From Spiribacter sp. 1M189 (GTDB taxonomy: Bacteria; Pseudomonadota; Gammaproteobacteria; Nitrococcales; Nitrococcaceae): 64,000 nucleotides of DNA. The DNA lies in contig NZ_JBAKFF010000001.1 of NCBI RefSeq assembly GCF_040838345.1, positions 310,001 through 374,000 of the forward strand, given 5' to 3'. Made by a program: the position numbers and the translations under genes. Below are positions 33,086 through 48,500 of the stretch, one piece after another. The notes below the pieces were generated by a model. The model saw only the letters and a program-made list of their open reading frames with translations, searched no databases and was not told where the DNA came from. Within the stretch, counting starts at the first letter, position 1, and each line of letters opens with the position of its first letter.

Positions 33086-33766
33086 ATGCGCCATCTACCG
33101 GCTGGGCTGCTGGATCGGTTCCGGGAGGCGGCCCGGGATCTCCCACAGCGGGATGATTCCGTCTATGCCCGAGCCGGCCGCGATCCCTGCGATCCGGTTT
33201 TTGGCCTGGGACCCAGGGATGCCGGGATCGCCTTTTTCGGGCGTGATCCGGGTCGGGACGAGGTGCATGTCGGCGTCCCTTTCATTGGCGCCGGAGGCCG
33301 CCAGGTCCGGCGGGTTCTGTACCGGCGCCATCATCACGGCGAGATGGTCGATACCGATGATGCCCTCAGGGCCGGTGAGGGCTATTTCTGGGCCAATACT
33401 GTGCCGTACAAGCCGGTGGGTAACCGGGCCTGGTCCATGCGCGTCAAACGGCAGTTCCAGCCGCTGGTGGCGGAGGTGTTGCTCCGCCTTTGGGAAGGCC
33501 GCCATATCATCAGTCTCGGTCGCGAGGCGTTTTTCTGGTTCGGGATCGGCCAGGGTCGCGAGGTGCGCCAGCATCTCGAGTATCACTGGCAAAGCCCGAA
33601 TCGGTTTGAGACCTCGCTGAGCGTCGATTTTGCCGGTCCCGCGGGAATGGCCCGCACCCTCGAGATCCATCCGCTGCCGCATCCCTCGCCATTAAACGCG
33701 ACCTGGTTCAAACGCTTCCCCGGACTGCTCGCGCAGCGTCTCGAGACGCTGGAGGAGCACTCGTGA
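33086..33766 (+). CDS. Uracil-DNA glycosylase superfamily protein
   Basis: 226 residues. Motif 1 region is FFGRDPGRDEVHVGVPFIG, resembling GEAPGxxED of family 4/5 UDGs with variation (Arg-Asp in place of Glu-Ala); motif 2 is HPLPHPSPLNATW, resembling HPSPxN. Family 4 Fe-S cysteines are not present. The protein would remove uracil or another damaged base, but divergence in motif 1 makes substrate uncertain. GTGA overlap with the creatininase-family gene downstream. Confidence 0.8.
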   Translation: MRHLPAGLLDRFREAARDLPQRDDSVYARAGRDPCDPVFGLGPRDAGIAFFGRDPGRDEVHVGVPFIGAGGRQVRRVLYRRHHHGEMVDTDDALRAGEGYFWANTVPYKPVGNRAWSMRVKRQFQPLVAEVLLRLWEGRHIISLGREAFFWFGIGQGREVRQHLEYHWQSPNRFETSLSVDFAGPAGMARTLEIHPLPHPSPLNATWFKRFPGLLAQRLETLEEHS

Positions 33767-34578
33767 GCGTTCACTACTGGGCGGAGCTCAACAGCGCTGG
33801 CGTGGCGGACTATCAGTCATCGGAGTCAGTCGCCATGCTGCCCCTGGGCGCGGTGGAGCAGCACGGTCCGCATCTGCCGCTGAACACGGATACTCGGATC
33901 GCACAGGGCCTGGCCGAGGAGGCCATGAAGCGCTATCGGTCAGGATGTCCGCTGCTGTGCCTGCCCGCGCTGAGTATCGGCCAGGGTATTGAGCATATCG
34001 CGCATTGCGGGACGCTGGCGCTTGAGCCGGCCACCTTCGAGGCGGTCCTCTATGATCTCGGCGCGTCGGTGGCCCGCGCTGGGCTACGGCGGCTGGTCCT
34101 CCTCTCCGCCCACGGTGGCAATCTGGCTGCCGTTGATACGGCGGCCCTGCGGTTGCGTCGTGATTTCGGTCTGCTCGTGGTCAAGGCCTGTTATTTCGAC
34201 TTCCCGCCCCTCGCGGGCGCCATACCGGAGCGTGAGCTCCGCGAGGGGCTGCACGGCGGTGCCCTGGAAACGGCCTTGATGATGCATTTCGACCCGGCGC
34301 AGGTGGATATCGAGCGACTCGATCATCACCCGTCGATCGAGTTTGATGCGCTGGCCGACAATCATTGGCTGGGCGCCGAGACACGGGCGGCACGATTCGC
34401 CTGGCTGGCGGACGATCTCAATCCCTCAGGGGTCTGCGGGGACAGCCGGCTTGCCACGGCGGCCCTGGGCGCTCGTCTTGCGGCGCATTATGGGGGGATC
34501 CTGGCCGCTGTGATCGAAGAGGCCGCTGGCTTTCCGCTCGACCGGCTCAAGTCGCCGGGGGCGGATCCTCAGCGCTGA
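33763..34578 (+). CDS. Creatininase-family amidohydrolase (possible FAPy deformylase-like)
   Basis: 271-residue metal-dependent amidohydrolase. Metal ligands expected for the fold are present: E32, H34, D43 (VEQHGPHLPLNTD), H117 (LLSAHGGN), and E169 (HGGALET). The family includes creatininase, MftE and archaeal ArfB, which deformylates the formylamino-pyrimidine derived from GTP. Immediate convergence with a GTP cyclohydrolase II gene (10-base overlap) makes an ArfB-like or related role on a GTP-derived pyrimidine attractive, but this is inference. GTG start coupled to the UDG-family stop. Confidence 0.85.
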   Translation: MSVHYWAELNSAGVADYQSSESVAMLPLGAVEQHGPHLPLNTDTRIAQGLAEEAMKRYRSGCPLLCLPALSIGQGIEHIAHCGTLALEPATFEAVLYDLGASVARAGLRRLVLLSAHGGNLAAVDTAALRLRRDFGLLVVKACYFDFPPLAGAIPERELREGLHGGALETALMMHFDPAQVDIERLDHHPSIEFDALADNHWLGAETRAARFAWLADDLNPSGVCGDSRLATAALGARLAAHYGGILAAVIEEAAGFPLDRLKSPGADPQR

Positions 34579-35684
34579 TTGCCGTCCGCCGCCGAATCGG
34601 CGAATACCTCTTCAAGCCAATGTCCCGCTCGGTTGGCCTTGGCCGTCAGATAGGGAGCGTTGTGACGGTTCAGCTCACCATGGATCGCCTCCCGGCCGGC
34701 GATCTCGACGCCAGCGGCTTCGAGCGCTGCAATCTTGCCCGGATTGTTAGTCATCAGCCGGACCCGGCTGATGCCCAGGTCATCCAGCATCGCAGCGGCG
34801 ACATCGTAGCGTCGCTCGTCCTCCCCGAACCCGAGCAGCTGGTCGGCATCCATGGTATCCAACCCGGTATCCTGCAGCCCGTAGGCACGCAGCTTGTTGG
34901 CCAGGCCGATGCCGCGGCCCTCCTGGGCAAGATAGAGCAGGATGCCGCCGCCTTCCTCGGCAATGGCATGCACGGCACTGCGCAGCTGCTCCCCGCAGTC
35001 GCAGCGCAGCGAGCCAAAAAGGTCACCGGTCAGGCACGCCGAGTGCATGCGTAGCGCCGGTGTCGTCGGCCACTGCCGCGGGTCGCCAATGACCAGTGCG
35101 ACATGCTCGAGCAGCCCATCCGCCTCGCGGTAGAGAATGAAACGCGACTGTTCCGCGCCGCTCAGCGGCACCCGGGCCTCGCTGACACGCTCCGGGTGGC
35201 GGCCGCTGTCGGCGAAAAACCGTCGTGCCTCTCCGCGGTCGATGGACAGCACCTCGCCCCGCTGGATCTCGCCGGCCAGGCGGTCCCGGTCAGGGTCACT
35301 CTCGATCGCCAGCAATGCGGGCAGGAGCGTTGCGCGTCGAGCCAGCTCCAGCGCCTGTCGTTCGCCGTCGGTCACCGGTCGGGCCGTCGTGCCGGTAGGC
35401 TCGGCATCCCGGCCCTTCGCCAGCGCTCGTGCGGTTTCCATGAGGCTGGCTTCAGGGACGGCGACGGCAATGCCATCACCGGCATGGCCATCCAGCCCGA
35501 GGGCCTCGGCGCGGTGAGCGGTGAGCAGCACGCTGGGAGTGCCGGAGGCCAGCCCGAGGGCCTGTTCAAGCCGGGCTTCGGTGAGATTCTCCAGTGCCAG
35601 TATCAGCGACCCGCCCGCCTCGCCGGCGACATGAACGGGCTCGCCGCGCCTGAGGTCGATCAGTGCGCGCCGGATACGCTGCAT
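34569..35684 (-). CDS. ribA: GTP cyclohydrolase II with non-canonical N-terminal domain
   Basis: 371-residue enzyme opening GTP to 2,5-diamino-6-ribosylamino-pyrimidinone phosphate, formate and pyrophosphate. Zinc cysteines C217-x10-C228-x-C230, the AQEGRGIGLANK catalytic loop and MTNNPGK phosphate site are intact. The N-terminal 170 residues sit where RibBA carries DHBP synthase but lack its acidic active-site motifs, so only cyclohydrolase activity is predicted. ATG at 35684 with AAAGGAG; the longer frame to 36008 lies over the divergent reductase gene. May serve riboflavin or the surrounding cluster. Confidence 0.88.
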   Translation of the reverse strand: MQRIRRALIDLRRGEPVHVAGEAGGSLILALENLTEARLEQALGLASGTPSVLLTAHRAEALGLDGHAGDGIAVAVPEASLMETARALAKGRDAEPTGTTARPVTDGERQALELARRATLLPALLAIESDPDRDRLAGEIQRGEVLSIDRGEARRFFADSGRHPERVSEARVPLSGAEQSRFILYREADGLLEHVALVIGDPRQWPTTPALRMHSACLTGDLFGSLRCDCGEQLRSAVHAIAEEGGGILLYLAQEGRGIGLANKLRAYGLQDTGLDTMDADQLLGFGEDERRYDVAAAMLDDLGISRVRLMTNNPGKIAALEAAGVEIAGREAIHGELNRHNAPYLTAKANRAGHWLEEVFADSAADGNQR

Positions 35685-35743
35685 GGTTTCTCCTTTATTC
35701 CGGTCTCTGGCGATAGACCGCCTCGGACTGTAACAATTCCGTG

Positions 35744-36574
35744 ATGATGACACAGGATGATAACCCCGCCATGCCGGAGACACCGGATCGGACCTGGTCG
35801 CGACTGCTTGCCGCCTGTCATGACGGCCTGGCTGATCCGCCGGCCGGGGTGTCGCGCGGACCGGCCGCCGCCGATGTGGTCGCGTTTGCCGAAGAGGTGG
35901 CGGCGCAGAGGCTTTGGCAGCGCTACGCCCCCCTGGCCCGTCCTGTTGGCAAGGGCGTCCGGGTCGTCGCGCAGCTGGGTCAGAGCCTCGATGGCCGTAT
36001 CGCGACACCCACCGGCCATTCCCATTACATCACCGGTCCGGCCGATCGTGCTCATCTGCACCGGCTGAGGGCGCTCAGCGACGCCGTACTTGTCGGGGCG
36101 GGTACGGTGATCGCCGATGATCCGCGACTGACGGTGCGCGAAGTGACCGGTCCCCAGCCCATTCGGGTGGTGTGTGCCGGACGTGACGGGATCGATCCCG
36201 ACAGAGCGATCTTCCGCGATGGCATGGCACCGACCTGGGGGGTAGCACCGGCCGCGGTGACCATGCCACCGGTGGATCGCCGCATCCATCCGGCGGACAT
36301 GACACCGGAGTCCGTGCTGGCAGCGCTTGAGGCCGCGGGGGTTCGGCGCTTGCTCGTGGAAGGCGGCGCGAGGACGGTGTCGGCCTGGTTGGCGGCCGGC
36401 CTGGTGGACCACCTCTATCTGGCAGTGGCGCCGGTCATCATCGGCGCCGGGCCGACCGGACTGCAGCTGCCGGCGATCAGCCGCATGGATGAGGCCTGGC
36501 GGCCGCCGGTGGAGCAGTTCGAGCTCGGTGAGGATCGGCTTTATCGGCTGGATTTTATCGGCGCGTCAGGCTGA
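35744..36574 (+). CDS. RibD C-terminal-type (dihydrofolate-reductase-fold) reductase without deaminase domain
   Basis: 276 residues. The reductase domain (about 70-270) has LGQSLDGRIATPTGHSHYI, LRALSDAVLVGAGTVIADDPRLTVR and LLVEGGARTVSAWL, the pattern of 5-amino-6-ribosylamino-uracil reductases. An N-terminal extension of about 65 residues replaces the usual zinc deaminase, so a reductase acting before or without deamination, as in archaea and fungi, is expected. Starts: GTG 35741, ATG 35744 or 35747. Divergent from ribA, convergent with the membrane protein gene (20-base overlap). Confidence 0.85.
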   Translation: MMTQDDNPAMPETPDRTWSRLLAACHDGLADPPAGVSRGPAAADVVAFAEEVAAQRLWQRYAPLARPVGKGVRVVAQLGQSLDGRIATPTGHSHYITGPADRAHLHRLRALSDAVLVGAGTVIADDPRLTVREVTGPQPIRVVCAGRDGIDPDRAIFRDGMAPTWGVAPAAVTMPPVDRRIHPADMTPESVLAALEAAGVRRLLVEGGARTVSAWLAAGLVDHLYLAVAPVIIGAGPTGLQLPAISRMDEAWRPPVEQFELGEDRLYRLDFIGASG

Positions 36575-37433
36575 CCAGCCCCGGCGTGCTGGCCAGCAGG
36601 GTAAGCCCGCCGTAGAGGACGGCGGCGCTAATCCCCTCGGCGGCCGGTAGTCCGGCCATTGGCCAGAGGATTGCCGCTGCCCCTTCTCTCAGTCCCCAGC
36701 CGGCAATACTTGCCGGAATCAGCATGGTGAAGAGCACCAAGGGGATCAGCGGCAGCCAGTCGGCGGCGCTGCTCGACGGGGCCAGCGCCATCACGCAACA
36801 GGCATAGACGGCGATATAGCTGGCGGCGACCAGCAGGGAGGCCAGCAACTGCACCGGCAGCACCGCCGGTGTCAGCAGCGCGCGCTGAAGCGCCTGCCAC
36901 CAGTCTCGAAGCCAGGGTGGCCGCCAGCCGATGGCGATGGCGAGGCCCGCGCCCCCGGTCAGCACAGCGAGCGCCAACAGCGCGGTCCTGGCTGCGTTGC
37001 CGATCGTGATCAGGCCGTCGCCGGGCGGCCATAGCCACCAGCTCAGGATGGCCAGGCCGGCCATGGCCAGCTGACCGGAGAAACGTTCGATGACGACTGC
37101 CTGAAAGGCCGGTGTGCGCCGGGGTGCATCGCTGCCGTGCCGCCACGCTCGCTGGGCATCCCCGATCACACCCCCGGGCAGGATCTGGTTGACCAGTGTG
37201 GCCAGGTAGTACTCGCGGACCGCGGTACCGGCTGCCAGGGTCAGCTGCAATCTCGTCGCGGTGAACCGCCAGCGCCAGGCCGAGAGGATGACCTGCAGGA
37301 CGGTGATCACGAGCCCGGCGAGGATCCAGCGCAGCTCGATACGCTGCAGCTGGCCCACGACGCCGTCCCCGAACTGCAGGGCAATAAAGCCCAGGATGCC
37401 CGCGCTGACGAGCAGCCGGATCAGCCGCGGCAT
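36555..37433 (-). CDS. Lysylphosphatidylglycerol synthase TM-region (UPF0104/AglD-like) membrane protein
   Basis: 292 residues, about seven to eight membrane helices. It shows the family features REYYLATLVNQILPGGVIGDAQRAWR and VIERFSGQLAM. Such proteins are proposed lipid flippases or lipid-linked transferases (MprF membrane half, AglD, hopanoid-associated). No soluble synthase domain. Last gene of a five-gene minus-strand run (dehydrogenase, PTPS-like, glycosyltransferase, methyltransferase, this gene), overlapping the methyltransferase by 13 bases, which suggests handling of a glycosylated lipid product. Confidence 0.83.
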   Translation of the reverse strand: MPRLIRLLVSAGILGFIALQFGDGVVGQLQRIELRWILAGLVITVLQVILSAWRWRFTATRLQLTLAAGTAVREYYLATLVNQILPGGVIGDAQRAWRHGSDAPRRTPAFQAVVIERFSGQLAMAGLAILSWWLWPPGDGLITIGNAARTALLALAVLTGGAGLAIAIGWRPPWLRDWWQALQRALLTPAVLPVQLLASLLVAASYIAVYACCVMALAPSSSAADWLPLIPLVLFTMLIPASIAGWGLREGAAAILWPMAGLPAAEGISAAVLYGGLTLLASTPGLVSLTRR

Positions 37434-38242
37434 GGCAGGGACAGGACATCCTGATGGCCAACACGGATATGACTGTGATCGATATCGGCCATGCGCGCCG
37501 CCAGCCAGGCATCCAGGCGACCGGCCTCGGCCGGTCGTCGGGCCATGGCGGCTTCATGCCAACCCTGCAGCAACAGGCGTTGTAACGGCGCCTGGGCCGG
37601 CGTCAGGTGCCAGTCGCTCCGGTGACGGATCACGGTTGCCCCGCGCCGGGTGAATGCGGCGTCCACCGTGGCGGCGGCATCCGGTCCCAATGCCCTGCCC
37701 ATGTCCTTCTCGCTACGCTGATGCTCGAGCACGGCGTTTTTGACGAGCGCGTCATCCGGAAGGGCAGGCGAGAGCGCCATGCGGCCGTCAAAACTCAGCG
37801 CCAGGAGCGCCGGCAGGCCATGTGCCGTGCAATAGTCGGCGAGTCGCTCGATCCAGTCCTCCGTGACCAGGTCGAGCAGCGCCGATGCAGTGATCAGATC
37901 CACCGCTGCCGGCAAACAGGATGGGAACTCGGCCAGGTCCGCCGCATGCGCGGTTATGGTGAGGTCATCCGGCGCACCCGAGGGGGGCTGCGCCGTTGCC
38001 GTTGCGCTGGCCCGGGTGAGCAGCTCGCGGTCGTGGTCAATCAGCCACCATTGCTGCGGCTGTGGCAATCGCGGGGCCAGGTAGCGCAGATTGCTGCCCG
38101 CGCCTGCGCCCAGGTCAGCGATCCGCAGGGGGCGTGCGACAGGGAGCCCCTCCCCGAGCCGCTGCGTCAGCAGATCGGGTCGGGCGGCGTGGTCAGCAGG
38201 TTCGCGGAGCGCGAGCCAGTCGGCGGCAAACTGCTCAGGCAT
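37421..38242 (-). CDS. Class I SAM-dependent methyltransferase
   Basis: 273 residues. Motif I is IADLGAGAGSNLRYLAPRL (about 41-59), followed by WWLIDHDRELL (motif II acidic residue) and a DLITASALLDLV block. The second half is not specific. Substrate unknown; context suggests methylation of the cluster product. The start at ATG 38242 overlaps the glycosyltransferase stop by 8 bases; an apparent longer frame runs inside the glycosyltransferase gene. Confidence 0.85.
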   Translation of the reverse strand: MPEQFAADWLALREPADHAARPDLLTQRLGEGLPVARPLRIADLGAGAGSNLRYLAPRLPQPQQWWLIDHDRELLTRASATATAQPPSGAPDDLTITAHAADLAEFPSCLPAAVDLITASALLDLVTEDWIERLADYCTAHGLPALLALSFDGRMALSPALPDDALVKNAVLEHQRSEKDMGRALGPDAAATVDAAFTRRGATVIRHRSDWHLTPAQAPLQRLLLQGWHEAAMARRPAEAGRLDAWLAARMADIDHSHIRVGHQDVLSLPCRG

Positions 38243-39287
38243 CGTTACCTCGATCCAGAAGGGCCATGAAACGCTGGATGGCGGGCGTCCAGCCGGCCAG
38301 TCGGCGTCGCGCCCGCTGGGCCCCCTCGACGAGTGACTGCCGCAGGGCATGGTCATCCAGCAGACGTTGCAGGGCATCGGCGAGTGCTGTCGTATCGTCG
38401 GGCCTGACCGCAAGGCCGGCGTCCGCCGGCAGTGTCGTGGCGAGGGCACCCCCCGTGGTGGTCAGCACGGGCAACCCGTAGGCCATCGCTTCATTGATCA
38501 CCATACCGTAGCCCTCGTAGCGCGAGGGTAGGACGAACAGATCAGCAGTCCGATAGGCGGCATCGAGGCGCTCGGCATCCAGTGCGCCGGCGATCTCCAC
38601 GCGCCCGGCAAGCCCCAGGGCATTTCTTTTTTCGTGGACTGCCGCGGCGTATGGCGGGTCCAGGTCGGCAGGCCCTGCCAGTCGGCAATGCCAGCGTCGA
38701 TCGGCGATTCGCCAGAGCGCGTCGAGCAGCACATGCTGCGCCTTGCGCGGGGACAAGGCGGCCACACACAGCAGTGTCGGCACGCCATCAGGGCTGCCGG
38801 TGGCAAGAGGCTGGGGTGAACAGCCGGGCTCGATGACCTCTACCGCGCCCTGGTGGATGCCCAGTTCCCGAAGGCGATGGGCCGTGAACCCGCTTGTGGT
38901 GATCACGCACCGCGCCTGCGCCACCGCCTCGGTCTCGCGGTCGAGCAGTCGACGGCCAAGCGCCGCATCGATTCCGCTCTCGTCGGAAAGGGGGTGATGG
39001 ATGAGCGCATGCAGACGCAGTCGCCGGGCATGACGCGCGAAGATCTCCGGTAGCCCGCCCAGTACCAGGCCGTCCACCACGACGGTTGCCTGGTCGGGAA
39101 GTGGCTCAAGCGCCGCATTAATAGCGGCTCGAGCGGTCTCATCGCCCTGGGGGAACCGACCCGGCAGCTCGCTGACCGCCACGGCGAGACCCTGCTGACG
39201 CAGACCCCGAACGATCTCCCGATCGTAGCGGCTACCGCCGGTGGGCCGCTCGAGTGCGCCGGGGACCAGGAAATGGCAGTCGCTCAC
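38235..39287 (-). CDS. GT4-family glycosyltransferase
   Basis: 350-residue GT-B retaining glycosyltransferase. N-terminal acceptor domain begins FLVPGALERPTGGSRYDREI; the C-terminal nucleotide-sugar domain has LFVLPSRYEGYGMVINEAMAYGLPV, the E-x7-E motif of GT4. Donor and acceptor unknown. Overlaps the PTPS-like gene by four bases and the methyltransferase by eight. Confidence 0.9.
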   Translation of the reverse strand: MSDCHFLVPGALERPTGGSRYDREIVRGLRQQGLAVAVSELPGRFPQGDETARAAINAALEPLPDQATVVVDGLVLGGLPEIFARHARRLRLHALIHHPLSDESGIDAALGRRLLDRETEAVAQARCVITTSGFTAHRLRELGIHQGAVEVIEPGCSPQPLATGSPDGVPTLLCVAALSPRKAQHVLLDALWRIADRRWHCRLAGPADLDPPYAAAVHEKRNALGLAGRVEIAGALDAERLDAAYRTADLFVLPSRYEGYGMVINEAMAYGLPVLTTTGGALATTLPADAGLAVRPDDTTALADALQRLLDDHALRQSLVEGAQRARRRLAGWTPAIQRFMALLDRGNDA

Positions 39288-39688
39288 GCCCGCAATGGTC
39301 GCTCGTAGGCAGCGGAGGCCACATGGGACTCATGCAGCGTGACGCGCAACCGGTCCAGCGACCCGGCGGTCTCGCCAAGATCACCGGCAAGGGCGGCCGA
39401 GGCGAGCGCATCGGCGATATGCCGGGCCAGGTACTCGGTGGTGGTATTAACGCCCTCAAACTCGGACAGCGCGTCGAGGTTGGCCAGGTTATAGCGGCTC
39501 AGGATGCTGCGCAGGACCTCGGTGGCACGGGCGATGTCAACGACCACGCCATCGGCGTCCAGCGCTTCCCGAAAGAACGTTGCGTCTGTCACATAGGTCG
39601 CGCCATGCAGCGCCTGGGCGGGCCCAAACGTCTCGCCGCGGAAGCTGTGGGCAATCATGAAATGGTCTCGGACATTAACGCGGTACAT
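39284..39688 (-). CDS. PTPS-fold (6-carboxytetrahydropterin synthase-like) protein lacking catalytic residues
   Basis: 134-residue T-fold protein similar in outline to PTPS/QueD: RDHFMIAHSF (first zinc histidine), LHGATYVTDATF, GVVVDI, NTTTEYLARHI and VTLHES (pterin-anchor Glu region). Three key features are changed. The zinc motif HGH is HGA, the catalytic cysteine before it is absent, and the catalytic Asp-His of LDHxNLD reads YNLANLD. It is thus unlikely to be a normal PTPS or QueD; a ligand-binding or differently catalytic role on a pterin-like compound is inferred. GGAGT precedes the ATG at 39688. Confidence 0.8.
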   Translation of the reverse strand: MYRVNVRDHFMIAHSFRGETFGPAQALHGATYVTDATFFREALDADGVVVDIARATEVLRSILSRYNLANLDALSEFEGVNTTTEYLARHIADALASAALAGDLGETAGSLDRLRVTLHESHVASAAYERPLRA

Positions 39689-39690
39689 GG

Positions 39691-40668
39691 TCACTCCTTG
39701 TAGCGGATACGGTGGCACAGGCCGGTGCCATCGAGGATGGCATCCATGGCCTGTGGCAGCTGTTCGAAGGGGGTCTCGTCGTCGATCAGCGCTTCCCATT
39801 CGGGATGGGCCGCGAGCAATTGCAGCGCTTTGCGAAGGCGACGCCGATGATCCCATCGCGGTTGCATCAACGGCGGGATCTGGCCGACCTGGCTCGAGCG
39901 CAGGGTGAGACGCCGAGAGTGGAATGCCTCTCCGAGGGGCAGATTGATCCGTTGGTCGCCAAACCAGCTGAGCTCGATAATGGTGGCCTCGTTGCCGGCC
40001 GCCCCCAGCGCCAGTTGCAGCCCGGCCTCACTTGCGCTGGCATGGATGATCCGGTCGTTGCCGGTGCGGGCCTCATCGGGATGGGCGAAGTCGATGCCCA
40101 GTCCGCCCGCTATCGCCCGCCGTGCCGGGTTGATATCGACCAGTTGCACCTCGGTGCCAGGGATGCCCGCGCAGAGCGCAGCGGTGAGTGTGCCGACCAC
40201 ACCGGCGCCGATCACGCTGATGCGCTCGCCGGGTCGGGGCGCGGCATCCCAGCACGCATTCAGGGCCGTCTCTGCATTGGCGGCGAGCACGGCGCGCTCG
40301 GCCGGCAGGTCCGCCGGCAGCGGCTCGACGGCGTCGGCCGGCACGAGATAGCGCGTTTGATGGGGGTAGAGACAGAACACCGTCTGTCCCACCCAGTCCG
40401 GAGGGCCTGCCTCGACGAGGCCGACATTAACGTAGCCGTACTTGACCGGCGCCGGGAATTCGCCGTCCTGGAAGGGCGCCCGCATTCTTCGGGCCTCGCT
40501 CGCCGGCACCTTCCCATGCCAGACCAGCGACTCGGTGCCGCGGCTTATGCCGGTGTAGAGCGTTCGGACCAGGAGGTCGCCCGGACCGGGCTCCCCGACC
40601 GGCTCCATGCGATGCTCACCCTTGCCGGGCGCGGTTATCCAGAAGGCCTGAGCGCTGCGATCACTCAT
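39691..40668 (-). CDS. MDR-type (zinc-binding alcohol dehydrogenase-like) oxidoreductase
   Basis: 325 residues. GroES-like N domain with TLYTGISRGTESLVWHG, where the usual catalytic zinc Cys and GHE signatures are replaced by SRGTE as in BchC-type dehydrogenases, and a Rossmann domain with GAGVVGTL (about 150-157). It would oxidise an alcohol or reduce a carbonyl with NAD(P). The ATG at 40668 has AAGGGAG 13 bases upstream; an ATG at 40701 is also possible. First gene of the minus-strand cluster operon; PTPS-like gene starts 2 bases after its stop. Confidence 0.84.
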   Translation of the reverse strand: MSDRSAQAFWITAPGKGEHRMEPVGEPGPGDLLVRTLYTGISRGTESLVWHGKVPASEARRMRAPFQDGEFPAPVKYGYVNVGLVEAGPPDWVGQTVFCLYPHQTRYLVPADAVEPLPADLPAERAVLAANAETALNACWDAAPRPGERISVIGAGVVGTLTAALCAGIPGTEVQLVDINPARRAIAGGLGIDFAHPDEARTGNDRIIHASASEAGLQLALGAAGNEATIIELSWFGDQRINLPLGEAFHSRRLTLRSSQVGQIPPLMQPRWDHRRRLRKALQLLAAHPEWEALIDDETPFEQLPQAMDAILDGTGLCHRIRYKE

Positions 40669-40732
40669 CGCCGGGTATTGCTCCCTTGCTGATAGACTCA
40701 TGATCCTCGTTTCCGATGAGCGGAGGGTAGCA

Positions 40733-41449
40733 TTGGTTCCGCGTCGCGCCGCCGATATCCCCTGGCTGATCCTTCCCGACCTGCTGGTGGCTGCCATCGT
40801 GCTGGCGGCGGCAGCCGGCGGTCTGAGGCTCTCACTGGATCTGCCCGCCGGTGTCCTGCCCCTGGCGCTGCTCGCCTATGCGGCCATGGCGGTCATGCTG
40901 TGGCGGTTGTGTGGCAACCGACCCCTGACGCCGGCCGATCGCGTCACCATGGGTCGAGGGCTGCTGGTGATGCTGCTGATCGGCTTGCTGCCTGCTGCCG
41001 GGGGCCTGCGGGAGGAGCCCGTGCTTCCCTTCGCGATCGCTCTGACGGCGGTGCTGCTGGATGGCCTGGATGGCTTCGTGGCCCGCCGACTGCACTGTGT
41101 CACTCAAGCCGGCGCCCGTTTCGACATGGAGCTCGATGCGGTGCTGCTGCTGGTGCTCTGCCTCTGGCTCGTGCAGCTGGGGCTTGCCGGCCCCTGGGTG
41201 CTCGGCATCGGTGCCTGGCGTTACGTTTTCGTGCTGGCTGGCCGCCTGCGTCCTCAGCTCCGCCGGCCCCTGGCCCCGTCCCAGCGTCGTCGGGTGATCT
41301 GCGGTATCCAGGGGGTGGGGCTGGGGATCTGCCTCGCGCCCGGTTTTCCGCCGGCGTGGGTGCCGCCGCTCGCGGCTGCGTTGCTGGCTCTTTTGAGTTA
41401 TTCGTTCCTGGTGGATGCTGCGGCATCATGGCAGATAGAAAAGAATTGA
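40733..41449 (+). CDS. CDP-alcohol phosphatidyltransferase family protein
   Basis: 238-residue integral membrane enzyme transferring a phospho-alcohol from a CDP donor. The complete signature D-G-x2-A-R-x8-G-x3-D-x3-D is present in DGFVARRLHCVTQAGARFD plus the final Asp three residues on. About six to seven membrane helices. TTG at 40733 preceded by GGAGGG at ideal spacing is preferred over ATG 40700, which would overlap the alternative dehydrogenase start. Divergent from the cluster operon; YceI and patatin genes follow on the same strand. Confidence 0.86.
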   Translation: MVPRRAADIPWLILPDLLVAAIVLAAAAGGLRLSLDLPAGVLPLALLAYAAMAVMLWRLCGNRPLTPADRVTMGRGLLVMLLIGLLPAAGGLREEPVLPFAIALTAVLLDGLDGFVARRLHCVTQAGARFDMELDAVLLLVLCLWLVQLGLAGPWVLGIGAWRYVFVLAGRLRPQLRRPLAPSQRRRVICGIQGVGLGICLAPGFPPAWVPPLAAALLALLSYSFLVDAAASWQIEKN

Positions 41450-41460
41450 GGAGTTGGATC

Positions 41461-42054
41461 ATGCACAAGCTGATGCTCAAGTCCGCACTGTTGGGGCTTC
41501 TGCTTTCCATCGGTGCCGCTTCGCAGGCCGAACCGGAGCGTTTCGTGCTCGACGAGAGCCATGTCAGTGTGGGTTTCCTGGCAGGGCATGCCCGCTTTGC
41601 CGACGTGCTTGGACAGTTCACCGACGTCTCCGGCGGTTTCGTCTATGACGCCGAAGCTGAGCGGCTGGTGTCCGGTACGGTCACCGTGGATGCGGCGAGC
41701 GTTTTCACGGGTCATGACGATCGTGACGGTCATCTCCGGGACGGCGATTTCCTGGCGGTCGAGCAGTACCCGGTGATCCGATTCGAGGCAACCGGTTATG
41801 AACCGACCGGCGAGGGCGAGGGCACGTTGCGGGGCGATCTGACCCTGCTCGGCGAGACGCGGCCGATCGAGCTCGAGCTCATCCTCAATCGGCGCGCCCC
41901 GCATCCCATCGGCGGCGCCGATACGCTGGGTGGCTCGGCCCGTGGCGCGATCAACCGCAGTGACTTCGGTATGGATTACGCCCTCGAGGGCGATCTGGTG
42001 GGCGATCAGATTGAGCTGATCATCGAATTCGAGGCCATTCAGGAGGATGCCTGA
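41461..42054 (+). CDS. YceI-family periplasmic lipid-binding protein
   Basis: 197 residues with a signal peptide (about 1-22, ending ASQA) and a lipocalin-like YceI barrel: FVLDESHVSVGFLAGHARF, SGTVTVDAASVFTG, FEATGYEPT, LTLLGETRPIELEL and SARGAINRSDFGM. Homologues bind polyisoprenoids or ubiquinone-like lipids. GAGGAG ribosome-binding site. Eleven bases after the CDP-alcohol transferase gene, overlapping the patatin gene by 8 bases, so a lipid-centred operon. Confidence 0.92.
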   Translation: MHKLMLKSALLGLLLSIGAASQAEPERFVLDESHVSVGFLAGHARFADVLGQFTDVSGGFVYDAEAERLVSGTVTVDAASVFTGHDDRDGHLRDGDFLAVEQYPVIRFEATGYEPTGEGEGTLRGDLTLLGETRPIELELILNRRAPHPIGGADTLGGSARGAINRSDFGMDYALEGDLVGDQIELIIEFEAIQEDA

Positions 42055-43030
42055 GGCGGTCACCGACGTTCGCCGACCGCGCATCGGGCTCGCGCTGGGC
42101 GGCGGCGCGGCGCGCGGCTGGGCGCACATCGGGGTGATCCGCGCGCTGCGGGAGGCGGGTATCGAGGCGGATATCATTGCCGGCACCTCGGTGGGTGCCA
42201 TCGCCGGGGCGATGCTCTGCAGCGGGCATCTCGATGCCTTCGAGCAGTGGGTGCGGTCGCTCAACCGCCGCGATGTGCTGGCCTACATGGATTTCGACAT
42301 CGGTAATGGCGGCTTTATCCAGGGGCGGCGCCTGATGGCCCGCTTCCACAAGACCTTCGACGCCATGGATTTCGCGGATCTGGACCATGCACTGGGCGTT
42401 GTCGCCACCGACCTCTACAGTGGCCAGGAGCGCTGGCTGCGGGAGGGCGATCTGGCCACCGCAGTGCGGGCTTCGATGGCGCTGCCGGGCGTATTCACGC
42501 CGGTGCATGTCAAAGGTGAGTGGTTGGTGGACGGCGGTCTGGTCAACCCGGTGCCGATCTCGCTGTGCCATGCCATGGGCGCTGATCGGGTCATCGCCGT
42601 CAATCTCAGCGGCGGGCTCGTCGGGAGGCGGATCCAGTCGCCGCTCGGGCAGGCGGCGGCGCATGGAACGGATGGCGAGGATCACCTGATTTCCGATCAC
42701 CCGGATGGCGGGGTGGGAGCACCGCTTGCCTGGTGGCATCGCTTGTCCAGCGGGTTCCGGGGCAGTGCCGAGGCGCTCCAGGCCCAGTTCCAGCGGGGCG
42801 AGCAGGATTCCGCCCCGGGCGTTTTCGACGTCATCGCCACGGCGGTGAATGTCATGCAGGACCGCATCACCCGCAGCCGCATGGCGGGCGACCCGCCGGA
42901 TCTGCTGATCAGCCCGCGGCTTGCGCATATCGGGCTGCTGGAGCTGCACCGTGGCGAAGAGGCGATTGCCGAGGGGTATGACTGCGTGGAGCGTATGCGC
43001 CCCGCGGTTGAGGCGTTCCTCGAAGACTAG
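42047..43030 (+). CDS. Patatin-like phospholipase, RssA family
   Basis: 327-residue serine lipase/acylhydrolase. Oxyanion motif GGGAARGW (18-25), nucleophile S48 in GTSVG, catalytic D162 in VDGGL. No signal peptide. The C-terminal region from about 200 resembles RssA-type proteins and is not conserved among patatins generally. Substrate probably membrane lipid. Convergent overlap of four bases with the phosphoribulokinase-like gene. Confidence 0.9.
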   Translation: MPEAVTDVRRPRIGLALGGGAARGWAHIGVIRALREAGIEADIIAGTSVGAIAGAMLCSGHLDAFEQWVRSLNRRDVLAYMDFDIGNGGFIQGRRLMARFHKTFDAMDFADLDHALGVVATDLYSGQERWLREGDLATAVRASMALPGVFTPVHVKGEWLVDGGLVNPVPISLCHAMGADRVIAVNLSGGLVGRRIQSPLGQAAAHGTDGEDHLISDHPDGGVGAPLAWWHRLSSGFRGSAEALQAQFQRGEQDSAPGVFDVIATAVNVMQDRITRSRMAGDPPDLLISPRLAHIGLLELHRGEEAIAEGYDCVERMRPAVEAFLED

Positions 43031-44040
43031 TCGGCGAGGGCGGACACCCGAGTGAGGACGGGCCAGGCCACGAGCATCTGCGCAAAGCGAACGGTGGCGG
43101 GTCTCAAGGGCTCGTCGGTGCGCTCGCCCGCCGGCGCATCCAGGCCAGCGAACGCACAGATTGCCTGTTCCAGCGTCTCCAGCGCGGCGGGCGCCATGTA
43201 CCCATCGACATGCAGCACATTGACTGCCCGGCCGCGAAAATGGCTCGGCACGGTGGCGAGCATGAAGGGCATGGCGTGCTGGCGGGTCATGTTGCTGAGA
43301 TCCACGGGCAGGAAAAGTGACTGCAGGTCGTCATCGCGCGGTTCGACGATAACCTCGAGGTGATAGCAGGTCTCCTGCACGTCGGCATCCAGCCGGCCCA
43401 GCGCCAGTCTTCCCAGTTCGCTCGGGTGGATGCGCAGGATGACGTCAGCGACGTCCTGCTGGCCGGCAATCCAGCGCTCGTACTGACTGGCCCGGCGGCT
43501 GATTTCGGCGTCGGCATCCGACGGTGCATAGCCCCGCTCGCGCGTGTCCCGGTGATGTTTCCACTCCCGCTTGACCGCTGCAGCGGTGTCCACGTAGACA
43601 GAGAAATCGAGCAGCGGCCGGAATTCCGGATACAGGGTGTGCAACCCTTCGACCACCACCACGGGCGTGGGGCTGTGCCGGCGGGGGGGCTGGAAGCGTC
43701 CCGTGGCATGGTCATAAACCGGTATCTCCACCGCCTCGCCGGCACGCAGGCGCTGGAGGTGGTCAACCGCCTGGTCCAGGTGGTTGGCATCGGGGTCCAG
43801 CGGGGTCCGGCCGGAGAGTCGACGGGTGGCGCGATCCTCGGCGTGATAGCCATCCAGACTGATCTGACTGACCCGCTCGGCGCCAAGCAGCCGCTCCAGG
43901 CCCTGTGTATAGGTGCTCTTGCCGCTGCCGCTGTCACCGGCGACACCCACCACGATCGGCTGCTGCCGGGTGGCCAGCCGGGCGTGCAGCTGATTGGCGC
44001 CGGGACGCGGCGCCTTGTCCTGGGCGGTGCGGGCTGTCAT
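43027..44040 (-). CDS. Phosphoribulokinase/uridine kinase-family protein, cyanobacterial (class II)-like
   Basis: 337-residue P-loop kinase. Walker A GVAGDSGSGKST (32-43), SLDGYHAEDR, TPLDPDANHLD, and VVEGLHTLYPEFRPLLDFSVYVD follow the class II PRK pattern more than the short proteobacterial one. Both thioredoxin-regulated cysteines of plant/cyanobacterial PRK are serine here (GSGKS and SLDGYH), so no redox switch. No RuBisCO gene in the window. It may phosphorylate ribulose 5-phosphate or a related pentose/nucleoside; ATG 44040 chosen for family length. Confidence 0.78.
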   Translation of the reverse strand: MTARTAQDKAPRPGANQLHARLATRQQPIVVGVAGDSGSGKSTYTQGLERLLGAERVSQISLDGYHAEDRATRRLSGRTPLDPDANHLDQAVDHLQRLRAGEAVEIPVYDHATGRFQPPRRHSPTPVVVVEGLHTLYPEFRPLLDFSVYVDTAAAVKREWKHHRDTRERGYAPSDADAEISRRASQYERWIAGQQDVADVILRIHPSELGRLALGRLDADVQETCYHLEVIVEPRDDDLQSLFLPVDLSNMTRQHAMPFMLATVPSHFRGRAVNVLHVDGYMAPAALETLEQAICAFAGLDAPAGERTDEPLRPATVRFAQMLVAWPVLTRVSALAD

Positions 44041-44186
44041 GGGGGAACCTTCGACGCAATGGGCCGGATCGCCGCTGTGCGGAGATTCGCTCCCGCCGCG
44101 GTACCCTGTCAAATCCGGGCAGACCGGGAGTTGCTCACCGGCAAGCGGGCGGTTAGCTTTGCTACTGCGGACAAAGGAGTTTTCCG

Positions 44187-44666
44187 ATGGCAATCAAGAC
44201 CACCGATCTGTGCGACGAACATGCCGAGCAGCTGCGCATCCTCTCCCCCATTTTCGGGGATTACGGGGGGCGGCATGGGTTTGCCGGCATTATCGAGACG
44301 GTGAAGACCTTCGAGGACAACACTCGGGTGCGGGAGGTCCTCGAAACCCCGGGGGACGGGCGGGTGTTGGTTGTGGACGGCGCCGGGTCGCTGCGCTGCG
44401 CGCTGGTGGGTGACCAGCTCGCGGCCAAGGCCCGTGACAACGGCTGGACGGGTCTACTGGTCTATGGCTGTGTGCGTGATGCGGCCGATCTCGCGGATCT
44501 GGATATCGGTATCAAGGCGTTGAACACTCACCCCCGCCGGAGCGAGAAGAATAATGTCGGTGAAGTCGGGGGCGCCGTGACCCTGGCCGGCGCCACCATC
44601 AAGCCGGGCGAGTGGCTGTGCGCCGATCGCGACGGTATCGTCATCGCCGTGGAGGCGCTGGTCTAG
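44187..44666 (+). CDS. rraA: RraA family protein (regulator of RNase E activity / 4-hydroxy-4-methyl-2-oxoglutarate aldolase fold)
   Basis: 159 residues, the length of RraA. DYGGRHGFAGIIETVKTFEDN and LVYGCVRDAADL match; GDQLAAKARDNGW carries the metal-linked loop. In E. coli RraA binds and inhibits RNase E; related proteins are aldolases. AAAGGAG ribosome-binding site. Followed 29 bases later by a CBS gene. Confidence 0.93.
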   Translation: MAIKTTDLCDEHAEQLRILSPIFGDYGGRHGFAGIIETVKTFEDNTRVREVLETPGDGRVLVVDGAGSLRCALVGDQLAAKARDNGWTGLLVYGCVRDAADLADLDIGIKALNTHPRRSEKNNVGEVGGAVTLAGATIKPGEWLCADRDGIVIAVEALV

Positions 44667-45539: not shown

Positions 45540-48500
45540 TCAACTGACTGCCTCGCCGGAGCGGCCTGCCTGCCGGGTGGACATGAACTCTGCGAGAAGG
45601 CGGCCGGTATGCGATTCGCGATTTCGGCATGCCTGCTCCGGCGTGCCCTGAACCACGATACGCCCGCCGCCATCTCCGCCCTCCGGCCCGAGGTCGATCA
45701 GCCAGTCGGCCTCGGCGAGCACGTCGAGGTTGTGCTCAATGACGACGACGCTGTGTCCCGCGTCCACCAGTCGATGCAGGACACCGGTGAGGCGCTCGAC
45801 ATCGGCGATATGCAGCCCGACGGTGGGCTCGTCGAGGATGTAGAGCGTTCTCGCCGCCGCTGTCCTGCCGGTCTCCGGCCTTGCCTTGGCCAGTTCGCTG
45901 ACGAGCTTGATCCGCTGGGCCTCGCCGCCGGACAGCGTCGGACTCGGCTGACCTAGGGTGAGATACCCAAGCCCCGTATCCCGCAGCAGCCCCAGCGTAT
46001 GGTGGAGTCGCTTGTGTGCCGCGAAGAAATCGACCGCCGTTTCGATATCCATGCTCAGGACATCGCCGATCGAACAGCCCCGCCAGGTGACGGCCAGGGT
46101 CTCCGGCGTGAAGCGCTGGCCGTGACAGGTCTCGCAGGGCACGGTGACGTCCGGGAGAAAGTTCATCTCGATCCGCCGCATGCCCTGCCCCTCGCAGTCC
46201 GGGCAGCGGCCCTCGCTGGTGTTGAATGAAAAGCGTCCTGGCCCGTAACCACGGATACGGGCCTCTTCGGTCTGGGCGAACAGGCGCCGTATCTCGTCGT
46301 AGATGCCGACATAGGTGACGGGGCAGGAGCGGGGGGTCTTGCCGATGGGCGTCTGGTCGACCTCGAGAACACGATCCACTGCCTGCCAGCCGGTGATGTC
46401 CCGACAGCCATGCGGCGCCGCGCTGGCATCGCCGGTACGGCCGAGCCGGGCCCGCAGGCTGCCATGGAGCACCTCCCGAACCAGGGTGCTTTTACCGGAT
46501 CCGGATACACCGCTCACTGCCGTCAGGCGGCCCAGCGGGATGCGCGCATTGACCTCGCGGAGATTGTTGGCGTGAACTCTCAGCAGCTTGATGGCTTCCG
46601 TGGCGTGGGCATCGCGGCGTTCGCCGCGCTGTGGGTGATGCATGGGATTGCTCAGGGCGCGCCCGGTGACCGAATCGGGATTGGCAAGCAGGTCCTCGAG
46701 CCGGCCCTCGGCCACGATCCGTCCGCCCTGCACACCGGCGCCGGGGCCGAGGTCAATGACATGCTCGGCGCGGCGGATCGTATCCTCGTCATGTTCGACG
46801 ACGACCATGGTGTTGCCCTTGGCTTCCAGTGCCGCCAGCGTGTCGAGGAGCATCCGATTGTCGCGGGCATGCAGTCCGATGGTCGGTTCATCGAGGATGT
46901 AGCAGACGCCCTGGAGGTTGGAACCAAGCTGGGCCGCCAGCCGGATACGCTGGGCCTCACCGCCGGAGAGCGTCGGCGCCGCCCGATCGAGGGTGAGGTA
47001 GCCGAGGCCGACCGCCGCCAGGAACCCGAGCCGCCCCTGCAGCTCGGACAGGATGTCGCGGGCAATCGCGGCTTCCCGACCCGTCAGTTCGATGTCGCGG
47101 AAAAAGGCCTCGGCCCCGGCCACCGAGAGGCCGCCATAGTCGGCAATGCCGCGGTCGAGAAAACGCACGGCCAGCGCCTCCGGTCGCAGGCGATGACCGT
47201 GACAGGCGGGGCAGATCCGCGGTCCTTCCTCGTCTCCGCCTCGCCACTGTCGCTCCTCGCCGGTCTGCTCGGCATCGAAGCCCTTGAGCACGACGCCGGT
47301 GCCGAAGCACGTCGGGCACCAGCCATGCCGGGTGTTGTAGGAGAATAGTCTCGGATCCAGCGGGCTGAAGCTGCGATTGCAGCCGGGGCAGGCGCGCTCC
47401 GTGGAATAGAGGGTGGTCTCCCCCGTCGCTCTGGCCACCTTGACCTGGCCCTTGCCATAGCCTAGGACCTGCGCCAGCGCGGCACCCAGTGTGTCCTCGT
47501 CGGCAGGATCCGGCTCGAGGGTGGCGACGGGCAGATCGATATCATGTTCCTGGTAACGGTCGAGGCGAGGCCAGTCGGCGGTGGGCAGATCCTCGCCATC
47601 CACGCGTAGGTGGCTGAAGCCTTTGCCGCCGGCCCACTGGGCCAGGTCGGTGTAGTACCCCTTACGCGCCACGACCAGCGGTGCCAGGAGCGTGACCGCT
47701 TCGCCGCGATGCGCCTCGACGAGGTGGGCGGCGATGGACTCACGGCTCTGTTCGCGGATGGGCAGATCGCAGTCGGGACAGTACTGGGTGCCCAGTTTGA
47801 CGAACATCAGCCGCAGGAAGTGATGCAGCTCTGTCATCGTGGCCACGGTGCTCTTGTGGCCACCGCGGCTGGTGCGCTGCTCGATGGCCACCGTGGGCGG
47901 GATGCCGAAGACCGCGTCGACGTCGGGCCGGGCGGCGGGCTGGACGAACTGCCGGGCGTAGGCGTTGAGCGACTCCAGGTAGCGGCGCTGGCCTTCGTTG
48001 AAGAGGATGTCGAAGGCCACCGTGCTCTTCCCGGAGCCGGACAGGCCGGTGATCACGGTAAGGCGGTCCTGCGGGATGCGCAGATCGATGCCGCGCAGAT
48101 TGTGTTCGCGCGCATTGCGGATTTCGATGGCCCGGGGTTCGGCCGTCATCGACTGCTTCACGCCTCGTGCCGCCGTCTCAAGCGGGGGGGCATCCGCCAC
48201 GCGCTCGCCTTGGTAGCGTTTGAGTGCGTTGCCGGTATGGCTTTCGGCCACGGCCATGACCGCCTCGGGTGTGCCCTCGGCAACCAGTCGGCCACCGGCA
48301 TCGCCGCCCTCCGGCCCCAGGTCCACCAGCCAGTCGGCGGCCAGCATGACATCCAGGTTATGCTCGATGACGATGACGGAATGCCCGGCCTCCATCAGCC
48401 GCTCAAGGGCGGTGAGCAGGACACGGATATCCTCGAAATGCAGCCCGGTGGTGGGTTCGTCGAAGAGGAACAGCTTATGCCCGCCGCCCCGCTTGCGGGC

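Follow-up and report, generated by a model that had tools for sequence, protein, structure and literature searches.

A dedicated GTP-derived pathway is well supported, by comparison with related loci, for nine adjoining genes at positions 33763-41449 of a 64,000-nucleotide stretch of the Spiribacter sp. 1M189 genome (contig NZ_JBAKFF010000001.1, positions 310,001 to 374,000; hereafter the window). In its fuller form the proposal is that a second RibA/RibD_C pair, independent of riboflavin synthesis, would open a branch from GTP to a glycosylated, methylated and possibly lipid-linked product; we regard the chances of this reading as evenly balanced, and the end product would be glycosylated and perhaps lipid-linked. 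The case is built from the gene families and their conservation, a riboflavin set kept apart from the cluster, the descent of cluster RibA, and likewise of cluster RibD_C, from two lineages, and the loss of catalytic residues in a PTPS-fold protein.

The nine genes follow one another closely, neighbours either overlapping by 4-20 bp or lying 2-62 bp apart. A creatininase-family amidohydrolase, the proposed deformylase (33763-34578, plus strand, GTG start; Pfam Creatininase 1.8e-60), overlaps by 10 bp the GTP cyclohydrolase II (GCH II) RibA (34569-35684, minus strand, start at 35684; Pfam GTP_cyclohydro2 2e-56), which bears an N-terminal extension of about 165 amino acids. RibA diverges across 62 bp from a RibD_C-type reductase without deaminase domain (35747-36574, plus strand, alternative GTG start at 35741; Pfam RibD_C 2.3e-40), which in turn overlaps by 20 bp a membrane protein of the LPG_synthase_TM family, a possible flippase or lipid-handling protein (36555-37433, minus strand; Pfam 7.7e-31). 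The latter belongs to a single minus-strand run, MDR-PTPS-GT4-MTase-LPG, composed of a BchC-like MDR-family dehydrogenase (39691-40668; NCBIfam BchC 1.5e-12, below cut-off), 2 bp from it a PTPS-fold protein of the PTPS-IV (FGPAQ) type from which the canonical catalytic residues are absent (39284-39688; Pfam PTPS 4.8e-22), a GT4 glycosyltransferase overlapping the PTPS gene by 4 bp (38235-39287, GTG start; Pfam Glyco_trans_1_4 5.1e-31), a class I S-adenosylmethionine (SAM)-dependent methyltransferase (MTase) overlapping GT4 by 8 bp (37421-38242; Pfam Methyltransf_25 5.1e-07) and, with a 13-bp overlap, the LPG-type gene. A CDP-alcohol phosphatidyltransferase (CDPOH; 40700-41449, plus strand; Pfam 1.3e-14) diverges from the MDR gene across 31 bp. 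Pfam matches above the cut-offs were obtained for eight of the nine families, the MDR gene being the exception; with its NCBIfam and PDB matches, the place and families of the nine genes given in the original prediction are borne out.

We propose that the cluster RibA would open GTP and that the creatininase-family enzyme would remove the formyl group in cases where RibA does not. The RibD_C reductase may then convert the ribosyl side chain to ribityl without deamination, giving 2,5-diamino-6-ribitylamino-pyrimidinone phosphate; PTPS-IV would bind this compound via a kept glutamate and, with its constant partner, the MDR dehydrogenase, most likely build or redox-adjust a second ring to yield a ribityl-pterin. 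GT4 would glycosylate and the SAM enzyme methylate the latter, and in the lineage of the window CDPOH and the LPG-type protein may attach the product to an envelope lipid or move it with one.

The order of the nine genes recurs far beyond chance. Among 20 loci from relatives (fetched stretches of 10.9-20 kb), 14 have all nine genes with order and orientation unchanged; of the other six, L034, L042 and L046 are cut at the contig or stretch end, creatininase was not found in the L047 stretch, and creatininase and RibA were not found in the L037 and L049 stretches. A PTPS match at 0.001 was detected in 33 of 95 genomes searched, the window's own included: identity to the window protein is 55-100% for 23 of these, counting the own genome, and 26-30% for the other ten, and the seven low-identity matches that were aligned resemble ordinary QueD. 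All but one of the 14 genomes of the genus (own included) have the cluster PTPS, and the exception is 74% complete. For a comparison across phyla, one genome per species was taken and the best 80 of at least 575 confirmed relatives were analyzed, with contig ends lowering some counts. These 80 loci come from at least five phyla (Pseudomonadota, Actinomycetota, Gemmatimonadota, Acidobacteriota and Myxococcota) and hold PTPS, MDR and GT4 in all cases, MTase in 77, CDPOH in 66, RibD_C in 64, LPG in 42, creatininase in 37 and RibA in 36. Co-occurrence of the cluster genes in other genomes, whose absence would have spoken against the original prediction, is thus very strong. Gene content is kept and order rearranged in Lentzea, Saccharothrix and Saccharopolyspora, and in five Gemmatimonadota loci (L088, L098, L114, L124, L127) RibA, always of the Ala/Tyr type described below, lies 0.7-6 kb beyond the fetched stretch, on a contig that agrees in length and place.

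In an even sample of 397 Pseudomonadota genomes, 32 (the own one among them) have PTPS-IV, and 11 PTPS matches were obtained in 296 Actinomycetota genomes (centre genome included), one of which (L218) is not PTPS-IV, having HGH and no FGPAQ, and one of which (L217) is cut before the motif. Neighbourhoods were compared for 31 Pseudomonadota and nine actinomycete loci, L218 being left out and the centre genome not refetched. The 31 Pseudomonadota loci contain MDR in 31, GT4 in 30, MTase in 29 (23 separate, six fused with GT4), RibD_C in 27, CDPOH in 15, LPG in 14, RibA in 13 and creatininase in seven; for the nine actinomycete loci the counts are MDR 8, GT4 9, MTase 7, RibD_C 2, CDPOH 7, LPG 8, RibA 8 and creatininase 6. 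Exact duplicates exist between sets (L041 and L053, L043 and L076, L227 and L119). Furthermore, the MDR profile at 1e-30 matches exactly the 32 of 397 genomes that bear PTPS-IV and none of the 365 others, absence being meant at the sensitivity of a first look in which five candidates per genome were scored for MDR and at most ten for PTPS. The main MDR match adjoins the PTPS gene in every one of the 32 genomes; one of them has a second, weaker match elsewhere, one a split match with an internal stop, and in two others the match contains a single stop. This perfect pairing and the presence in 13 of 14 genus genomes look more like core metabolism than like the synthesis, starting from RibA/RibD-like enzymes, of a secreted antimetabolite akin to toxoflavin or to nucleoside antibiotics, a reading which we consider unlikely. 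Toxoflavin synthesis does start with RibA and RibD homologues plus a methyltransferase, and it has these enzyme types in common with the cluster, whereas GT4, PTPS-IV, MDR and the membrane enzymes are not known from it; moreover, Pfam named no exporter or resistance gene in the cluster.

That the cluster could be the riboflavin set of the genome was rejected. In the window's own genome (1.95 Mb, 99.83% complete) three GCH II and two RibD_C matches were found. A RibD that has both its deaminase and its reductase domain, a RibE with two lumazine-binding stretches (Pfam), RibBA and RibH lie around C1:1216843-1220294, outside the cluster, and a further RibA, in which the motifs HSECLTGD and RAY are canonical, is located at C1:1825089. 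The RibA half of the RibBA (C1:1217365-1218519; L133 1471-2625, minus strand) scores above the Pfam cut-off and, on reading, its zinc cysteines are absent. Had the cluster genes been the sole riboflavin copies, this would have spoken against the original prediction; a separate set is present elsewhere in the genome. No PTPS-family match other than the window gene was found in this genome. The cluster shares with the riboflavin pathway (RibA, RibD and an archaeal ArfB-type deformylase) the enzyme families of the first two or three steps but differs in its later genes, and Pfam analysis of the nine genes found no deaminase, lumazine synthase or riboflavin synthase among them. An auxiliary set for riboflavin supply, with the other genes as passengers, would account for the RibA and RibD_C families, yet the lack of these three enzymes, the separate riboflavin set and the fact that the invariant core is PTPS-MDR-GT4 and not the rib genes make it very unlikely. 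A dedicated pathway other than that to riboflavin, as originally claimed, is supported by the conserved order, the PTPS/MDR pairing and this separate set.

The entry of the pathway is likely GTP ring-opening and reduction without deamination. The window RibA has HSAC in place of HSEC at the first zinc cysteine, and the three zinc cysteines C220, C231 and C233 (numbering of a 374-amino-acid slice) are conserved in 100% of 52 sequences, in agreement with its GCH II domain; its NCBIfam scores are 227.9 for PRK00393 (cut-off 148) and 199.5 for TIGR00505, just under the cut-off of 205.85. In the RibD_C gene only the RibD_C domain was matched, and the TIGR00326 score of 103.2 against 156.35 is below that of a bifunctional RibD. 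In a RibA tree of 43 rows, six of which are non-cluster RibA, the cluster sequences form two lineages: the first is common to Pseudomonadota, Gemmatimonadota, Acidobacteriota and nine actinomycete rows, and the second, made up of 16 actinomycete rows, forms a clade together with which non-cluster RibA is placed (98/92 at the joining fork). Cluster RibD_C likewise falls into two lineages, namely one clade of 17 rows from four phyla (99/96), apart from housekeeping RibD, and an actinomycete clade of 11 (100/99). A row of the first RibD_C clade, G110, adjoins an Ala/Tyr-type RibA and not a PTPS gene. Two RibD_C copies from outside the cluster in Streptomyces-like genomes, labelled as housekeeping, fall among cluster rows of the second clade; the label may therefore be wrong and the copies may serve the pathway. 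The repeated recruitment of RibA and RibD_C to the same core suggests that the pathway includes both the opening of the GTP ring and the reduction of the side chain, and the two lineages of each enzyme leave the originally claimed GTP start as the most likely one.

Evidence for a separate deformylase comes from the creatininase-family protein and from RibA itself. The metal ligands of the creatininase superfamily are Glu/His/Asp/His/Glu, and the corresponding E32, H34, D43, H117 and E169 are conserved in 53 sequences (E32, H34 and D43 in 96%, H117 and E169 in 100%); the ArfB NCBIfam score of 20.7 against a cut-off of 180 bits indicates that ArfB shares the superfamily only. In Actinomycetota, loci whose RibA has lost the tyrosine of the RAY motif (to His, Gln or Met) contain creatininase in 10 of 10 cases in a first set and in 6 of 6 in a second, while those with a tyrosine-keeping RibA lack it throughout (0/7 in the first set, 0/1 in the second and 0/1 for the hand-typed L217; these nine include L073 and L217, which are on short contigs). 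Among further actinomycete loci with creatininase, L099 has its RibA, of the His type, on a different contig and close to the end of it, and L129 has no RibA long enough to type. The association of tyrosine loss with creatininase fits a separate deformylase in this phylum. Outside Actinomycetota, typed cluster RibA keeps the tyrosine, but the Glu next to the first zinc cysteine is replaced by Ala or Ser; such Glu-lost RibA occurs together with creatininase in 33 loci of the first set (31 after duplicates are dropped) and in five of the second. A common rule, by which creatininase would be present only where RibA has lost Glu or Tyr, was tried on these data: it held in the first set (43/44 against 0/7 with canonical RibA, two of the 43 creatininase-bearing loci being duplicate contigs), and its Glu half failed in the second. 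Since its Tyr half amounts to one event on the tree, the Fisher value of 7e-8 for the rule was not used. In L221 and L230 of the second set, creatininase is present and RibA is absent from the stretch.

The profile of the PTPS-fold protein finds Streptomyces coelicolor SCO6650 (3d7j) as the best solved relative (7.2e-66), and the AlphaFold2 model of the protein (pLDDT 91.5) superimposes on 3d7j with a TM score of 0.91 at 58% identity. F21-G22-P23-A24-Q25 is present in 97-100% of 91 sequences, which is the signature of PTPS-IV within COG0720, and FGPAQ was found in 39 of 41 even-sample loci, one of the others being cut before the motif and one having HGH and no FGPAQ. Alignment with seven canonical homologues from relatives bore out the claim of an altered PTPS fold: the catalytic Cys is replaced by Ala, HGH by HGA and the Asp-His pair by Asn-Leu, Asn-Tyr or Asn-Phe, so that the canonical PTPS/QueD residue set is missing. 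E120 aligns with the Glu of the WET motif, which anchors the pterin in canonical PTPS and QueD, and is conserved in 100% of the 91 sequences, in which H9, H14, H28 and H122 are likewise invariant. With the Glu kept and the catalytic Cys, the third zinc His and the Asp-His pair lost, PTPS-IV should, on the established enzymology, still bind a 2-amino-4-oxo-pyrimidine and not catalyse the PTPS or QueD reaction. Thus it shares with QueD and PTPS of queuosine and biopterin synthesis the fold and the pterin Glu, but differs from them in these three losses and in a GCH II instead of a GCH I context. The protein of the actinomycete locus L218 (approximately 7.8-11 kb), where MDR, GT4 and RibD_C accompany a PTPS that keeps HGH, has FGPAT for FGPAQ and is 38% identical to SCO6650, may represent a transitional form linking QueD-like enzymes to PTPS-IV.

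The subgroup itself is in print: PTPS-IV was delimited in COG0720 by the signature FGPAQ as AGeNNT cluster-node 62 (PMC5445326), with the same PF00925 and PF01872 neighbourhood as the cluster described here. Its passages on the subgroup take PF00925 as GTP cyclohydrolase I/FolE2 and give neither a product nor any of the other cluster genes. A role of PTPS-IV in archaeal F420 synthesis is mentioned, as unpublished, in PMC5041015; the cluster loci do not resemble F420 loci. The description of the pathway as undescribed therefore stands for its product, none having been found in the open-access literature searched, but not for the PTPS subgroup and its neighbourhood, nor for the SCO6650 structure, which is solved.

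Four Streptomyces-like loci have a PTPS that is 89-94% identical to SCO6650. They show the order CDPOH-MDR-PTPS-GT4-MTase-LPG-creatininase-RibA with the gene families of the window cluster, but differ from it in that RibD_C was not found in the four 20-kb stretches and that RibA has Met for Tyr. Counting recognised genes from PTPS, this Met-type RibA comes fifth and creatininase lies between the two, which fits the position of SCO6655, five loci from SCO6650 and reportedly a GCH II that releases a formylated product owing to Met in place of Tyr. SCO6650 is reportedly devoid of zinc and activity.

The MDR gene gave no Pfam match at 0.001, its BchC score of 47.3 bits lies below the NCBIfam cut-off of 291.25, and the PDB matches of the protein are alcohol, threonine and sorbitol dehydrogenases, its profile giving none at 1e-18. 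The solved neighbours of the GT4 profile are Tll1590, presumably a sucrose-phosphate synthase, D-inositol 3-phosphate glycosyltransferase and phosphatidylinositol monomannoside mannosyltransferase. These enzymes transfer to sugar or polyol phosphates or to a phosphatidylinositol mannoside, by analogy with which a ribityl phosphate acceptor would fit, though GT4 enzymes are diverse. The AlphaFold2 model of the MTase (pLDDT 93.4) matches many generic methyltransferases in Foldseek. In L219, L222, L223, L231, L232 and L234, GT4 and MTase share one open frame, a fusion which suggests consecutive action of both enzymes. The motif of CDP-alcohol phosphotransferases, DGxxAR(x8)GxxxDxxxD, is present in CDPOH: D121, D124, G125, A128, R129, G138 and D142 are conserved in 100% and D146 in 98% of 82 sequences, and choline phosphotransferase as well as phosphatidyltransferases of the serine, glycerol-phosphate and inositol types are matched weakly by the profile. 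The LPG-type protein (292 amino acids) matches the Pfam transmembrane domain only and lacks the catalytic domain of MprF-type LPG synthase.

The lipid link is proposed from these last two proteins. A soluble, glycosylated and methylated ribityl-pterin or pyrimidine cofactor, with CDPOH and the LPG-type protein as lineage-specific additions for storage or export outside the core, is a possible reading that we hold to be clearly less probable than the proposed branch: nearly all the even-sample Pseudomonadota have PTPS-IV, MDR, GT4, MTase and RibD_C, where CDPOH and LPG are found in only 15 and 14 of 31 loci, and pteridine glycosides are known in other bacteria. Contrarily, CDPOH and LPG are present in 66 and 42 of the best 80 loci and in seven and eight of the nine even-sample actinomycete PTPS-IV loci, and envelope genes (sulfatase-like, YceI, OpgGH) recur nearby. 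These recurrent extra neighbours point to the envelope. When neighbour families were clustered among 100 loci, a sulfatase-like membrane family accounted for 31 open reading frames (ORFs), FkbM methyltransferase for 24, YceI for 19, OpgG for 12 and OpgH for 11; three ORFs of the sulfatase-like family overlap CDPOH, and of eight scanned five were over and two under the Pfam cut-off and one gave no match. In the window a YceI-like gene (41461-42054, plus strand; Pfam YceI 8.4e-38), 11 bp downstream of CDPOH, is a candidate tenth, lineage-limited member. The 31 even-sample Pseudomonadota loci contain OpgH in 13, FkbM in ten, OpgG and sulfatase-like genes in six each and YceI in four, four OpgH proteins being MdoH-type by NCBIfam and two OpgG being MdoG by Pfam. 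Of the 13 OpgH loci, nine come from a different class of Pseudomonadota, probably Alphaproteobacteria, and CDPOH was not found in these nine. In seven loci (L235, L236, L237, L239, L247, L248 and L249, approximately 11.4-13.2 kb), an MdoH-type glucosyltransferase, named as such by NCBIfam in L235, stands divergent from MDR, in the position that the CDP-alcohol transferase occupies in gammaproteobacterial loci.

Such neighbours would also suit a pathway that supplies an envelope glycan, e.g., osmoregulated periplasmic glucan, with a substituent or a precursor, with the GTP-derived group put on a sugar by GT4 and OpgH-type enzymes. OpgH and OpgG in 13 and 6 of the 31 loci, with the MdoH and MdoG identities, and the recurrence of weakly sulfatase-like membrane proteins favour it, but no MdoG match was found in the window's own genome, which weakens periplasmic glucan as a general answer, and neither OpgG nor OpgH was found in ten even-sample Actinomycetota loci; we judge it improbable. 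As for the originally claimed glycosylated and possibly lipid-linked product, the dedicated GTP-derived pathway holds up, while the order of the late steps is putative, and so is lipid attachment, with CDPOH in 15 and LPG in 14 of 31 loci.

Several findings count against the proposed branch from GTP to a glycosylated and possibly lipid-linked product. RibA, creatininase, CDPOH and LPG are each present in under half of the 31 even-sample Pseudomonadota loci, and RibD_C in only two of the nine even-sample actinomycete PTPS-IV loci (one of which is cut). The nine OpgH-like loci without CDPOH indicate that the lipid reading is not general. On the RibA tree, the link between tyrosine loss and creatininase is one evolutionary event, and the Glu change does not track creatininase: Glu-lost RibA without creatininase was found once in the first set and eight times in the second (in three of these eight, Tyr was read from the printed stretch), and L065 has creatininase while Glu and Tyr are both retained in the zinc-type RibA that its genome bears on a different contig. 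The deformylase role is hence backed by the tyrosine link in Actinomycetota (16/16 against 0/9) and not by the Glu change. Each of the chemical steps, along with the sequence in which they follow and the link to a lipid, is deduced here from the genes.

With regard to the surroundings of the cluster, no RNA families or tRNA genes were found in the window, and no viral relatives were confirmed. A uracil-DNA-glycosylase family gene (33086-33766, plus strand) overlaps the creatininase start by 4 bp; this stretch was matched beside the cluster in genus members and in the relative L040, with a query frame that is not the gene's own. A phosphoribulokinase/uridine kinase family gene (43027-44193, minus strand) adjoins a patatin-like gene, and ORF families similar to these two recur in 10 and 11 loci. 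A 1845-amino-acid open frame at 45540-51077 (minus strand), about twice the usual UvrA length, comprises, by reading only, two tandem UvrA-like ABC units.

The most far-reaching form of the proposal, to which we give a low probability, is that a lipid-anchored glycosylated ribityl-pterin might serve in at least five phyla as a membrane cofactor or envelope component, with PTPS-IV and MDR closing the ring in a manner unlike PTPS, QueD or lumazine synthase. To our knowledge, such a flavin/pterin hybrid formed from GTP without deamination has not been described. If the proposed pathway is true, Streptomyces coelicolor and the halophilic Halomonas would be convenient organisms for tracing the compound. 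The pathway would then also explain the 3D7J structure and the so far unexplained PTPS subgroup, and it would mean that an overlooked metabolite is made by several per cent of the sampled bacteria of two large phyla (PTPS-IV in 32/397 Pseudomonadota; 11/296 matches in Actinomycetota, one of them not PTPS-IV).

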